DNA of 64,000 nt from Henriciella sp. (GTDB lineage Bacteria; Pseudomonadota; Alphaproteobacteria; Caulobacterales; Hyphomonadaceae): assembly GCA_030066975.1 (NCBI GenBank), contig JASJAO010000003.1:62001-126000 (forward strand), read 5' to 3'. Below, one piece after another: positions 19,698 through 22,526 of the stretch. The number at the start of each line of letters is the position of its first letter. Positions within the stretch are counted from its first letter, which is position 1. The notes under the pieces were generated by a model. That model worked only from the letters and a program-made list of their open reading frames with translations, did no database searches and had not been told where the DNA came from. A program made the position numbers and the translations under genes.

Positions 19698-20372
19698 ATG
19701 ACATCGCGTTTCCTCCCCGGCCTTGCCGCCGCCACGGCCCTCACCCTGGCGGCTTGCTCAGGCGCCAATACCGACACGGACCAGCCGCTCTTCGTCCAGG
19801 CGGTGAATTTTGATGACTTCACCCCGGCTGAAGGGTGCACGCTGGATGAACCCGATGCCCGTTATCGCGCCTGCCTTGACCCGGATGAGCTCTATGCCGC
19901 CGCCGTTGCCTCGGCCCAGGCGGCGGACAACCCGCTGATGATTGTCTGGGGCTTTGAGGAATGCCCCTTTTGCATGAAGTTTGAGGCCGAGGAGATGAAC
20001 CCTGATAATCCACGCATGACGTCTCAATTCGTCAGCGAGGTGCTGAGCGAGAGCCAGCGCGCGGACTTACCAAACAATGGCGCGGACTTTCAGATCAGCG
20101 TCGTCAACATCCATGTCCGCGCTGAAGCAGGGGCTGCGCTCGCTGAACGGCTCGGCGTCACCGATATTGCTCGCGAGCGCGGCTGGCACCGGGTCTGGTC
20201 GCCATTCGTCACTTTCACCCAACCTGGCTCTGACACATTCGTTGCCCAGACCCAGTTTGAGCAAGGCGAAAAACCTTGCGTCTACGAAGACGACTTCGCG
20301 ATCAGCCTTGAGCAGCTCGGCTATGTCCCGGCTGATCCGACCCGCGAGCGGGCCATGTGTGCGGCGAGCTGA
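19698..20372 (+). CDS. Thioredoxin-like lipoprotein with CPFC motif
   Basis: A 224-residue predicted lipoprotein. The signal MTSRFLPGLAAATALTLAAC ends at lipobox Cys20. A thioredoxin-fold segment contains WGFEECPFCMKFEAEE near residue 95, with the CPFC redox pair. A conserved-looking RGWHRVWSPFVTF near 167 may supply the cis-proline strand. It probably reduces, oxidises or shuttles disulfides, or binds metal, in the periplasm. The ATG at 19698 is preferred over a 22-codon upstream extension because it starts the signal peptide. It converges on arsI. A partner is not evident. Confidence 0.78.
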   Translation: MTSRFLPGLAAATALTLAACSGANTDTDQPLFVQAVNFDDFTPAEGCTLDEPDARYRACLDPDELYAAAVASAQAADNPLMIVWGFEECPFCMKFEAEEMNPDNPRMTSQFVSEVLSESQRADLPNNGADFQISVVNIHVRAEAGAALAERLGVTDIARERGWHRVWSPFVTFTQPGSDTFVAQTQFEQGEKPCVYEDDFAISLEQLGYVPADPTRERAMCAAS

Positions 20373-20410
20373 TCCAGCCGGGAGCTGATTTTTCGTATGC
20401 CCTTGCAGGG

Positions 20411-20863
20411 TCAGCCGCAGCACTCCCGCGCCTTCACATTCTCTTCCGGTGTCCATTCCTTGAATGCCGCGCTGTCGCGTAAGTCGTGGCCATAGGTCGG
20501 GATCGTCTCCATGGAGTGGAACATCTCCCAGACGACACCCTGCGGGTCTTTCGCCCAATGTTTGTTGGAATGGGCATAGCAGCAGTTTGCGTCCGGTTCG
20601 GCCAGCGTCGATTGTTCGGCTGCCTGGAGCGCCGCGTTCAGGTCCTCAAGCTCGGCATCGCTATCGACCTGAATGCCGACATGATCAACGCCGCGTACGG
20701 CGCCGTCCCGCTGACTGACGGCCAGATTGATCCGTGGATCGTCCAGCATCCATTTCATATAGTCAGGCTTTTCAACGCTCGGCGCTTGCCCGAACAGCGC
20801 ACTGTAAAAAGCTTTAGTCTGCGCCATGTCGGCGGCACTAATGTGGATATGTAGCCTTTTCAT
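20411..20863 (-). CDS. arsI: ArsI-type organoarsenical C-As lyase (VOC fold)
   Basis: A 150-residue vicinal-oxygen-chelate dioxygenase. Predicted metal ligands are His5, His61 (in VDHVGIQ) and Glu113 (in VWEMFHSMET). The vicinal cysteines Cys94-Cys95 in DANCCYAHSN match the arsenical-binding pair of ArsI, which cleaves the C-As bond of methylarsenite or aromatic trivalent arsenicals. The close relative CadI is the alternative. The end RECCG adds another vicinal cysteine pair. The ATG is 2 bp from the end of an inverted-repeat element, and the AAAGGG ribosome site lies inside that repeat. arsR lies upstream on the same strand. Confidence 0.87.
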   Translation of the reverse strand: MKRLHIHISAADMAQTKAFYSALFGQAPSVEKPDYMKWMLDDPRINLAVSQRDGAVRGVDHVGIQVDSDAELEDLNAALQAAEQSTLAEPDANCCYAHSNKHWAKDPQGVVWEMFHSMETIPTYGHDLRDSAAFKEWTPEENVKARECCG

Positions 20864-20865
20864 TG

Positions 20866-21175
20866 GAGCCCTTTCTTTCCAAAAAGAATCATTTGGCCGC
20901 TGGGATTTTTCGCTCTGGCAAGGCGTGATGGGCGACGCGGTGCGAGCACCGTTAGCCGATCACAACGCTGTCCAGAGTGGAAAAGAACAAGGTCAGATGA
21001 TTTGAGAGAATAATGTGGATAACTCAGGACTTTGGGACAACCAAAGCTTGATGCGTCTTTGCTCAAGATCTGCGTCGAAACGCTCGACCGATGCCCGCAT
21101 CGCTCTTGCGCTTTCTCCTTGCCCTTAAACAAATCCATCATCACCAAACTGGTCCTTTTTGAAAAGAAAGGGCTC
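20866..21175. mobile_element. MITE-like 310 bp element with terminal inverted repeats
   Basis: The segment between arsR and arsI is bounded by inverted repeats: 20866-20886 (starting GAGCCCTTTCTTT) and 21155-21175 (ending AAGAAAGGGCTC). They match at 20 of 21 positions, with weaker similarity extending about 10 bp inward. The left end lies 2 bp from the arsI ATG and the right end touches the arsR stop. An inner imperfect inverted repeat is at about 20909-20979. There is no transposase and no obvious target duplication. It may be a miniature inverted-repeat transposon, or a structured intercistronic RNA. One weak 95-codon reading frame inside is not believed. Confidence 0.65.
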
Positions 21176-21501
21176 TAAATCTCCTGCTGGTTCATGAGGG
21201 ATGTTTCAAGATCGGGGATACCGGCGCAGCAATCCTTCATCAGATACCCGGCCAGATCTCTGACGGCGTCAAAATCGACCGAAGAATAAATCTCCCGGCC
21301 GCGCCGGTTTTGTTCAATCAATCCAGCCTCTACCAACGCTTTGAGATGGTGTGCAAAGGTTGAGGCCGGGACGCCGAGCGTTTGCCGAAGCTGGCCGACT
21401 GAGAGGCCATCGCTTCCCGCCTGTACCAGTTTCCGCAGCACCCGAACCCGATTGGGGTGGCCAAGCGCGGCGAACATCATTGCTGAGCGGGCTTCATCCA
21501 T
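21175..21501 (-). CDS. arsR: ArsR-family metalloregulator
   Basis: A 108-residue winged-helix repressor. The family core MFAALGHPNRVRVLRKLV and the DNA-recognition helix VPASTFAHHLKALVEAGLI are clear. The only cysteines are the pair Cys91-Cys92 in MKDCCAG near the C-terminus. This is the region used by Acidithiobacillus-type ArsR, but the third cysteine is missing; regulators with only two cysteines can favour trivalent organoarsenicals. It lies upstream of arsI and would derepress it when the arsenical binds. No Shine-Dalgarno sequence precedes the ATG, so the transcript may be leaderless. Confidence 0.9.
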   Translation of the reverse strand: MDEARSAMMFAALGHPNRVRVLRKLVQAGSDGLSVGQLRQTLGVPASTFAHHLKALVEAGLIEQNRRGREIYSSVDFDAVRDLAGYLMKDCCAGIPDLETSLMNQQEI

Positions 21502-21504
21502 GAA

Positions 21505-21535
21505 TTCGATATAACTAGTTTTTTCGTTATGTAAA
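21505..21535 (-). promoter_or_regulatory. arsR: Candidate arsR promoter and operator
   Basis: An inverted repeat ATAAC-N10-GTTAT spans 21511-21530, directly upstream of arsR. On the minus strand it overlaps plausible promoter elements, a TTTACA and a TATATC-like box 17 bp apart, with the ATG only about 7-8 nt further on. This arrangement fits autoregulation by ArsR and a leaderless or nearly leaderless message. It is inferred from position and symmetry only. Confidence 0.45.
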
Positions 21536-21617
21536 GCTCGAACTGAAATCGCGCTCGGGTTCGGACTTTGAAGCCGATCGGTTTGCAGTCCGCCTTAGAG
21601 CGACTTAAGCTGCGCCG

Positions 21618-22526
21618 ATGTTCGACACGATCCTCTATGACATCGACAAAGGCCGCGCGCGGATCACCCTCAACCGGCCTGACAAACTGAACGCGATAAG
21701 CCTGAAAATGCAGGCAGAACTCGCCGAGGCGCTGTGGGACGCCGATGCGCGGACAGACGTGCATTGTGCCATCATCAAAGGGGCCGGGCGCGCTTTCTCT
21801 GCGGGCTATGACCTTTCCGGCGGCGACAGTGTACCGATCTCTCGCCTGCAGGCGGCAAACCCGGATGCGCCTTATCGCGGCGCGCGCAGCGTTGACGATG
21901 ACATCTGGCAACTGGAGCGGGCGCAGCGCTATCGCATGGCGATCTTTGACATGCACAAGCCCGTCATCGCGCAGGTCCACGGCCACTGCAAAGCCGGTGG
22001 CACTGATCTGGCCCTGCTCTGCGATATGGTGATCATTGCCGAGGACGCAGAGATCGGCTTTCCCGCAGGCCGCGATCTCGGTTCTCTGCCCAATCAGCTC
22101 TGGCTGCACACGGTCGGGCCGCAATGGGCCAAACGTCTCCTGCTGACCGGTGACAGTCTTACCGGCGCAGAAGCGGCGCAAATCGGCTTTGCTCTGAAGG
22201 CGGTGCCCGCCGACCTGCTGGAAACCGAAGTCGAAGGGCTCGCGGACCGGCTCGCCCTCATCGATCCAGACATTCTCGCCGCCAATAAGCGTGTGGTGAA
22301 TATGGGGCTGGAGCTGATGGGCGCGCGCACCCTGCAACGCTATGCGGTTGAGAATGACGCTCGCGGTCATCAGGCGGCCAGCGCCCGCGCTTTCATGAAG
22401 CGGGCCTCAGAGGTGGGGCTAAAGCAAGCACTCAAAGATCGCGACGCCCCCTTCGGCGACGGCCGGGCGCGGGTCGATGGCCCGGAGCGCCGCGATGAAA
22501 ACGGACGCTTGATCGACGACGCATAA
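21618..22526 (+). CDS. Crotonase-superfamily protein (enoyl-CoA hydratase/isomerase-like)
   Basis: A 302-residue crotonase-fold protein. The CoA-binding opening ITLNRPDKLNAISLKMQAEL and the oxyanion-hole region GAGRAFSAGYDLSGGD are clear. The second half has VIAQVHGHCKAGGTDLALLCD. The usual paired catalytic glutamates of enoyl-CoA hydratase are not both evident, so it could be a hydratase, isomerase or hydrolase. The C-terminal extension with a degenerate charged tail is longer than the classic 260 residues. The stop is 8 bp before the polyamine decarboxylase start, suggesting cotranscription without an obvious pathway link. Confidence 0.86.
   Translation: MFDTILYDIDKGRARITLNRPDKLNAISLKMQAELAEALWDADARTDVHCAIIKGAGRAFSAGYDLSGGDSVPISRLQAANPDAPYRGARSVDDDIWQLERAQRYRMAIFDMHKPVIAQVHGHCKAGGTDLALLCDMVIIAEDAEIGFPAGRDLGSLPNQLWLHTVGPQWAKRLLLTGDSLTGAEAAQIGFALKAVPADLLETEVEGLADRLALIDPDILAANKRVVNMGLELMGARTLQRYAVENDARGHQAASARAFMKRASEVGLKQALKDRDAPFGDGRARVDGPERRDENGRLIDDA

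Follow-up and report, generated by a model that had tools for sequence, protein, structure and literature searches.

A window of 64,000 nucleotides (64 kb) was analysed, in which an arsR-like and an arsI-like gene are transcribed in the same direction and separated by a 310-bp stretch bounded by inverted repeats (Table 1). The arsR product matches the ArsR/SmtB metalloregulator profile (NF033788) at 68.8 bits (cut-off 55). The product of the second gene reaches 111.2 bits with the ArsI/CadI VOC profile (NF041414), slightly below the cut-off of 116, as do the ArsI-like proteins of two relatives (105.4 and 106.2 bits); it displays up to 83% identity with the versions of relatives over 133 residues, and is likely of the ArsI/CadI type. 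By these profile scores, the gene names proposed in an earlier note on this DNA hold in outline.

Table 1. Features at the arsR-arsI joint (window positions; the ars strand is the minus strand).
Feature	Position	Strand	Basis
arsI-like VOC metalloenzyme (ArsI/CadI type)	20411..20863	-	ORF, intact frame; NF041414, PF00903
Presumed TA target copy, arsI side, now TG on + (CA on ars strand)	20864..20865		compare TA flanks of the copy on contig C1
Putative non-autonomous mobile element, 310 bp, two inverted arms	20866..21175	.	empty sites, other copies, family models
Left terminal inverted repeat, arsI side, carries AAAGAAAGGG on ars strand	20866..20886		
Arm A, conserved hairpin module	20894..20998	+	copy used in building R1 as well as R2; fold on both strands
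Arm B, homologous module, inverted, more diverged	21044..21146	-	model R2, E 6.6e-7
Right terminal inverted repeat, arsR side	21155..21175		
arsR-like ArsR/SmtB regulator	21175..21501	-	ORF; NF033788, HTH_20; TAG stop uses first base of the element
TA target copy, arsR side	21176..21177		sequence
AGGAG in arsR 3' end	21181..21185	-	sequence; probable original arsI ribosome site

The two terminal repeats are identical at 20 of 21 positions and enclose 310 bp, the right one touching the arsR stop and the left one ending 2 bp before the arsI ATG, all of which the earlier note had described correctly. An inverted-repeat search extends the arms to 32 nt (84% complementary) and ranks this repeat first among the 11 of the window (at least 16 nt, spacing up to 450 bp). 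The arsR stop TAG is made up of the TA at 21177-21176 and the first base of the element (21175), and the ars strand reads AAAGAAAGGGCTC-CA-ATG into arsI. That the repeat arose by chance in a long spacer between genes is a negligible explanation: when the element was shuffled 20,000 times at the mononucleotide level, a single shuffle gave ends matching at 14 or more of 21 positions, the presence of the same ends at two other loci and the family models (see below) contradict it as well, and nothing was found in its support.

The claim that the element lacks a transposase stands, as the one open frame tested against Pfam and NCBIfam (95 amino acids, 20860-21147, minus strand) has no match at E 0.001 and is of a length within chance. 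Equally long frames occur in at least 20 of 300 dinucleotide shuffles for every element, and in 58 of 300 for that of the window; by our reading, the strand of the frame varies among elements. An element-encoded protein is rejected, as the long stop-free frames of all 12 elements tested fall within dinucleotide shuffles. The TGA of the 95-amino-acid frame overlaps the arsI ATG and AAGGA lies upstream, an arrangement that could couple arsI translation to it. A GANTC (CcrM) site is found at 20886-20890, in the arsI-side end region; given a GANTC density of 1.08 per kb in the window, this single site was assigned no evidential weight. Rfam yields a tRNA elsewhere as the sole match in the whole window, and for the element stretch a best score of 15.1 bits, with no match beyond chance and none at the gathering threshold.

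With the ArsI protein as query, a match was obtained in 22 of 60 relatives. In 20 of these 22, arsR is located directly upstream of arsI on the same strand, at a gap of -4 (15 relatives), -1 (two) or 11 to 22 nt (three), compared to 311 in the window; in the other two (L020, L027), no arsR closely precedes arsI on the same strand. Removal of the element and one TA copy from the window produces the joint AGGAG-ATTTA-ATG (joined flanks AGGAGATTTAATG), at which arsR would stop at a TAA overlapping the arsI ATG by one base. This reconstructed joint holds a good ribosome site within the last arsR codons: AGGAG would stand 5 nt before the arsI ATG, from which it is now separated by more than 310 bp, and it is probably the older arsI ribosome site, still present. 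With the element in place, arsR ends at the unchanged residue via TAG, and the arsI ATG is intact. The empty state of the ars joint is hence seen in relatives, but CA stands in place of the TA copy next to arsI. Judged from these sequences, the insertion of a mobile element between arsR and arsI appears highly probable.

The host genome contains three copies with window-type ends, namely the one of the window (contig C17), a 159-bp single-arm copy with related ends on C23 (L002), and a 45-bp end-to-end palindromic copy on C1 (L003), as well as a diverged related copy with other ends on C5. At up to three mismatches, the window end sequence is found in the host only at these three copies, and nowhere around a longer element. 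The C23 copy provides the TAG stop for the preceding gene, and the C1 copy provides TAG stops for both of its convergent neighbours, a transporter and a LysR gene. This joint was compared across 28 congeners that share the LysR gene. The convergent stops overlap by 4 bp in 19 of them (as CTAG in 13 of the 19), while the other nine display gaps of 0 to 12 bp (seven congeners), -91 (L166) and 1190 (L162), the transporter of L162 being poorly matched and probably not part of the same pair. The host site reads C-TA-GAGCCC...GGGCTC-TA-G; the TA is cleanly duplicated here, independently of the ars locus. This CTAG joint provides both a filled and an empty state with a duplicated target, as expected of a miniature inverted-repeat transposable element (MITE). 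The joint looks as if it had been repeatedly hit or left. Among the stretches concerned (L003 1501-1550, L155-L183), L157, L158 and L171 have 8-10 bp enclosed by two TAs, and the sequence of L170 resembles a single end of another sub-family.

The search of the genome and of relatives that the earlier note had proposed produced further host copies on the one hand, and ars joints of relatives without the 310 bp on the other. The element has the attributes of a MITE in the broad sense, that is, terminal inverted repeats without a transposase gene, more than one genomic copy, and filled and empty sites. The earlier proposal that a MITE-like element landed between two operon genes is supported by the host copies, the empty sites, the TA duplication on C1, and an order-wide family of related elements.

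Among 105 genomes of the host's family, the window end is found only in the host and at one single site in G036 (L035), which we judge to be chance; none was found in a genome-contig collection that may omit records near the host genome, and a plasmid collection gave no result. DNA search with the whole element in the 60 relatives displays weak matches only, in two genomes. The match in G029, a member of another genus, is part of an element about 304 bp long, the interior of which is similar but the ends of which differ. A pattern scan of the genome-contig collection with the G029-type end returned 11 contigs, all of the metagenome-assembled genome Hyphomonas sp. MAG_Ve_Sed_47. A further locus (L010) was judged unrelated.

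Covariance models of the interior reach further. Model R1, built from 4 sequences, matches 11 of the 105 genomes of the host's family, and model R2, built from 20 sequences, has matches in 48 of the 398 genomes covered across the order, which belong to 19 of 59 genera (E up to 0.001 per genome, at a rough calibration with stricter filters). Many R2 matches are paired in opposite orientation about 20-60 bp apart, which indicates that full elements consist of two homologous inverted arms. Full elements measure about 265-335 bp and are closed by a terminal repeat of 20-42 bp. A clear terminal repeat is present in 15 of the first 20 stretches (score at least 20, arms 22-42 bp; the exceptions are L084, L088, L089, L090 and L096), and in 15 of 19 further loci (score at least 17, arms 20-35 bp). 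TA is found at both ends in 15 of 21 delimited elements, with hand-drawn boundaries and one further element left out.

Within single elements, 82-96% of positions match between the two ends (20 elements). Of 22 delimited elements, 13 were oriented and aligned (one or two per genome, by our choice); across their 28 terminal pairs, pairing is 90.9% standard, and 27 of the 28 carry two-sided changes. The covariation score of 0.855 is reached by none of 500 shuffles, a test that related rows can inflate, and sliding the partner by 1 to 3 columns lowers pairing to 29-48%. One-sided changes occupy 7 cells compared to 120 for two-sided changes, which favours a cause at the DNA level at least as much as pairing of RNA; candidates are a transposase site present twice, conversion between the arms, or replaced ends.

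Between genomes, mean identity is 0.59 for interiors and 0.47 for ends (100 pairs, 15 of 20 elements, after dropping G029_C102, G029_C341, G113_C1, G113_C92 and G002_a); element orientation was picked by best interior identity, which introduces a slight bias toward the interior. Within one genus (G035, G113, G114), interiors are identical at 0.80-0.83 and ends at 0.36-0.57. The sequence of the terminal repeats varies by lineage, and their pairing is kept. The TAGG-type sub-family within the host's genus (G002, G009, host C5) speaks against a general rule: its listed pairs display 0.71-0.79 for ends and 0.70-0.82 for interiors, and rapid end turnover is therefore not general.

The arms differ in stability between strands. 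The arm A consensus folds at -41.6 kcal/mol on one strand and -11.6 kcal/mol on the other, and arm B mirrors this (-14.2 and -24.5 kcal/mol). All 13 elements have the better fold of arm A on its strand, and 12 of the 13 have that of arm B on the opposite one, in one case by just 0.1 kcal/mol. Such strand-specific folds indicate that each arm forms a hairpin with conserved G.U pairs when followed from its own end toward the interior; the arms may act as structured RNA or as hairpins of single-stranded DNA. In six other element loci, the best Rfam score is 21.6 bits to RF01867 (threshold 75), a full-length sub-threshold match (E 0.26) on one element half (L094 439-606, minus strand). RF01867 is the Caulobacter sRNA CC2171, which may by this sequence match be related to the arms of the family; a literature search for CC2171 found no papers.

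As for the source of transposase, the end of the C5 copy, TAGGGTCAGGACTCATTAATTTTG, resembles by eye an end, CTAGGTCATAAACTCATAAATT, that lies beside genes with DUF4096 and DDE_Tnp_1 domains (G013, G113), which we take to be IS5-type insertion sequences. Likewise by eye, the ends of host C5, G002 and G009 resemble those of L117, L121 and L127, while the window's own end is unmatched. The three domains sought in the host assembly (G000, 24 contigs), DDE_3 (PF13358), DUF4096 (PF13340) and DDE_Tnp_1 (PF01609), were not found there. Neither was an autonomous element with the same ends in the host genome that would point to derivation from a named insertion sequence, and we therefore call the element MITE-like by structure and file it under no named IS.

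Based on this dataset, we hypothesize that a TA-targeting element without transposase inserted at the TA of the TAATG stop-start joint of arsR and arsI, moved in trans by an IS5-like transposase that would have acted on its ends and duplicated the TA. The two genes would still be co-transcribed, and in the transcript the terminal repeats would pair over 21 positions, one of them a G.U wobble, to form a stem in which AAAGAAAGGG is buried and at the foot of which the arsI AUG lies. We assign this reading, as regards the mobile insertion, a probability of roughly 0.88; trans-mobilisation, co-transcription and the stem at the arsI start are proposed along with it. Against it stand the relatives L020 and L027 without same-strand arsR upstream of arsI, the absence of the three sought transposase domains from the host, and the CA in place of TA on the arsI side; moreover, two-sided end pairing is expected of plain transposase sites too, and the fold is a prediction on naked RNA.

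Consensus promoters were not found in 20300-21700, and the two terminator-like sites in this range both lie inside arsR. In the predicted arsR-arsI transcript, AAAGAAAGGGCTC is unpaired with a probability of 0.002 and the AUG stretch with 0.87, in agreement with the earlier suggestion of a stem that hides the AAAGGG ribosome site. If the 9-15 nt that follow the arsR stop are kept unpaired, the predicted value rises to 0.35-0.52 for the buried site and drops to 0.52-0.57 for the AUG stretch. The idea that the element supplies the arsI ribosome site is accordingly half right: AAAGGG is indeed part of the left repeat, but AGGAG in arsR is still there.

The earlier note had also considered that the insert is an RNA whose stem serves a new way of controlling an organoarsenical gene. 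The fold z-score of -5.55 against 100 dinucleotide shuffles could be taken in favour of a dedicated switch evolved to control arsI, though any long inverted repeat would give a strong score. We consider such a switch very improbable: the joint carries no such insert in any of the 20 relatives whose arsR and arsI are adjacent (gap up to 22 nt), copies are located at unrelated genes, and no Rfam match above chance is found in the window stretch. An ars-specific RNA is rejected on account of these insert-free joints. The covariation by which the stem was to be judged is strong, but is seen across copies at unrelated loci, not at ars; the stem is hence informative about the element family rather than about ars control, and a new mode of organoarsenical regulation is not borne out.

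Within the preferred reading of a mobile insertion, arsI could be translated after a ribosome stopping at the arsR UAG, or a cut by RNase III, has opened the stem; we advance this step tentatively, at somewhat below even odds. On the other hand, the insertion may uncouple or silence arsI, with the stem blocking initiation or RNase III cutting it, and arsI persisting for lack of time. The predicted 21-position stem with its buried ribosome site would fit, and RNase III cleaves a Correia element in the mtrCDE mRNA of Neisseria, according to the part of the source consulted (PMC10969869); the intact arsI frame and its above-mentioned similarity to relatives make silencing rather unlikely.

A split ribosome site is a further possibility, in which the stem returns AGGAG of arsR to a place beside the arsI AUG, and the 30S subunit spans the stem at its foot when binding. 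The insertion would then be nearly neutral for arsI, as the paired ends of the element repair the start site. AGGAG-AUUUA-stem-CA-AUG leaves 7 single-stranded nt, compared to 5 nt once the flanks are joined. The predicted fold leaves the AUG open, and the accessibility of AGGAG is much the same with and without the element (mean unpaired 0.25 and 0.26, respectively), which also means that it is mostly paired in either case. Precedents are described in excerpts of two papers, for T4 genes 38 and 25, where structure shortens 22 to 5 and 27 to 11 nt (PMC3014915), and for the split ribosome site of E. coli thrS (PMC3936740). In these, structure between the Shine-Dalgarno sequence and AUG shortens the distance as predicted here; unlike in T4 and thrS, the intervening structure would be a 310-bp mobile element, and the stem with its branched top is far bigger than the T4 structures. 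We regard this alternative as unlikely. Three routes to arsI hence remain on the basis of the predicted folds: a stem opened by the ribosome, a stem opened by RNase III, or use of the arsR AGGAG across the stem.

Conserved ends are the usual hallmark by which short mobile elements are identified, and variable ends would hide the present family from end-based searches. The combination of changing yet paired ends with better-conserved arms in many lineages hints at a structural job for the arms. It is conceivable, though we would call it speculative and improbable as a whole, that an order-wide family keeps its ends for pairing over sequence and its arms as structures, and enters coupled operons while sparing the downstream gene, with arsR-arsI as a caught case; since the ends always pair in such a scenario, a copy between ribosome site and start codon would rebuild the start across its stem. 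The ars insertion is an ordinary, MITE-like type of event by an unusual family in an instructive place. It represents a natural experiment, in which a tight gene joint survives a 310-bp insert, and is no evidence for new arsenic-responsive control.

In a limited literature search, no description of the family itself or of a MITE in an ars operon was found. RIME and ABC are palindromic intergenic repeats of alphaproteobacteria, which we liken to the present family by description alone, and Bru-RS is a repeat class named beside them. RIME and ABC repeats of rhizobia are mentioned in the accessible part of PMC2573895. IS5-type insertion sequences share TA ends and, for one sub-family of elements, an end sequence that is similar by eye; unlike these, the present element has no transposase, and the window's own end is unmatched. 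The original description of the Caulobacter CIR repeats is attributed to Chen and Shapiro (2003). As summarized in portions of a review (PMC2229807), CIR are alphaproteobacterial intergenic repeats with two inverted arms, a linker and TA ends, as here, but measure about 110 bp, carry a footnoted '-' for terminal repeats in the review table, and contain a conserved GANTC. GANTC is present in 7 of our 22 elements, and CIR are set apart by description. The TA-type MITEs RUP, Correia/NEMIS and ERIC, as far as covered by the excerpts available (PMC2229807, PMC10969869), share the lack of a transposase, terminal inverted repeats, TA ends, small size, intergenic location and folded transcripts. Unlike these, full elements of the family described here measure about 265-335 bp and contain a pair of homologous hairpin arms in inverted orientation, and between many lineages their interior is better conserved than their ends. 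One element of G029 (L044 1363-1596) has arm A beside foreign sequence in inverted order, and is thus a mosaic.
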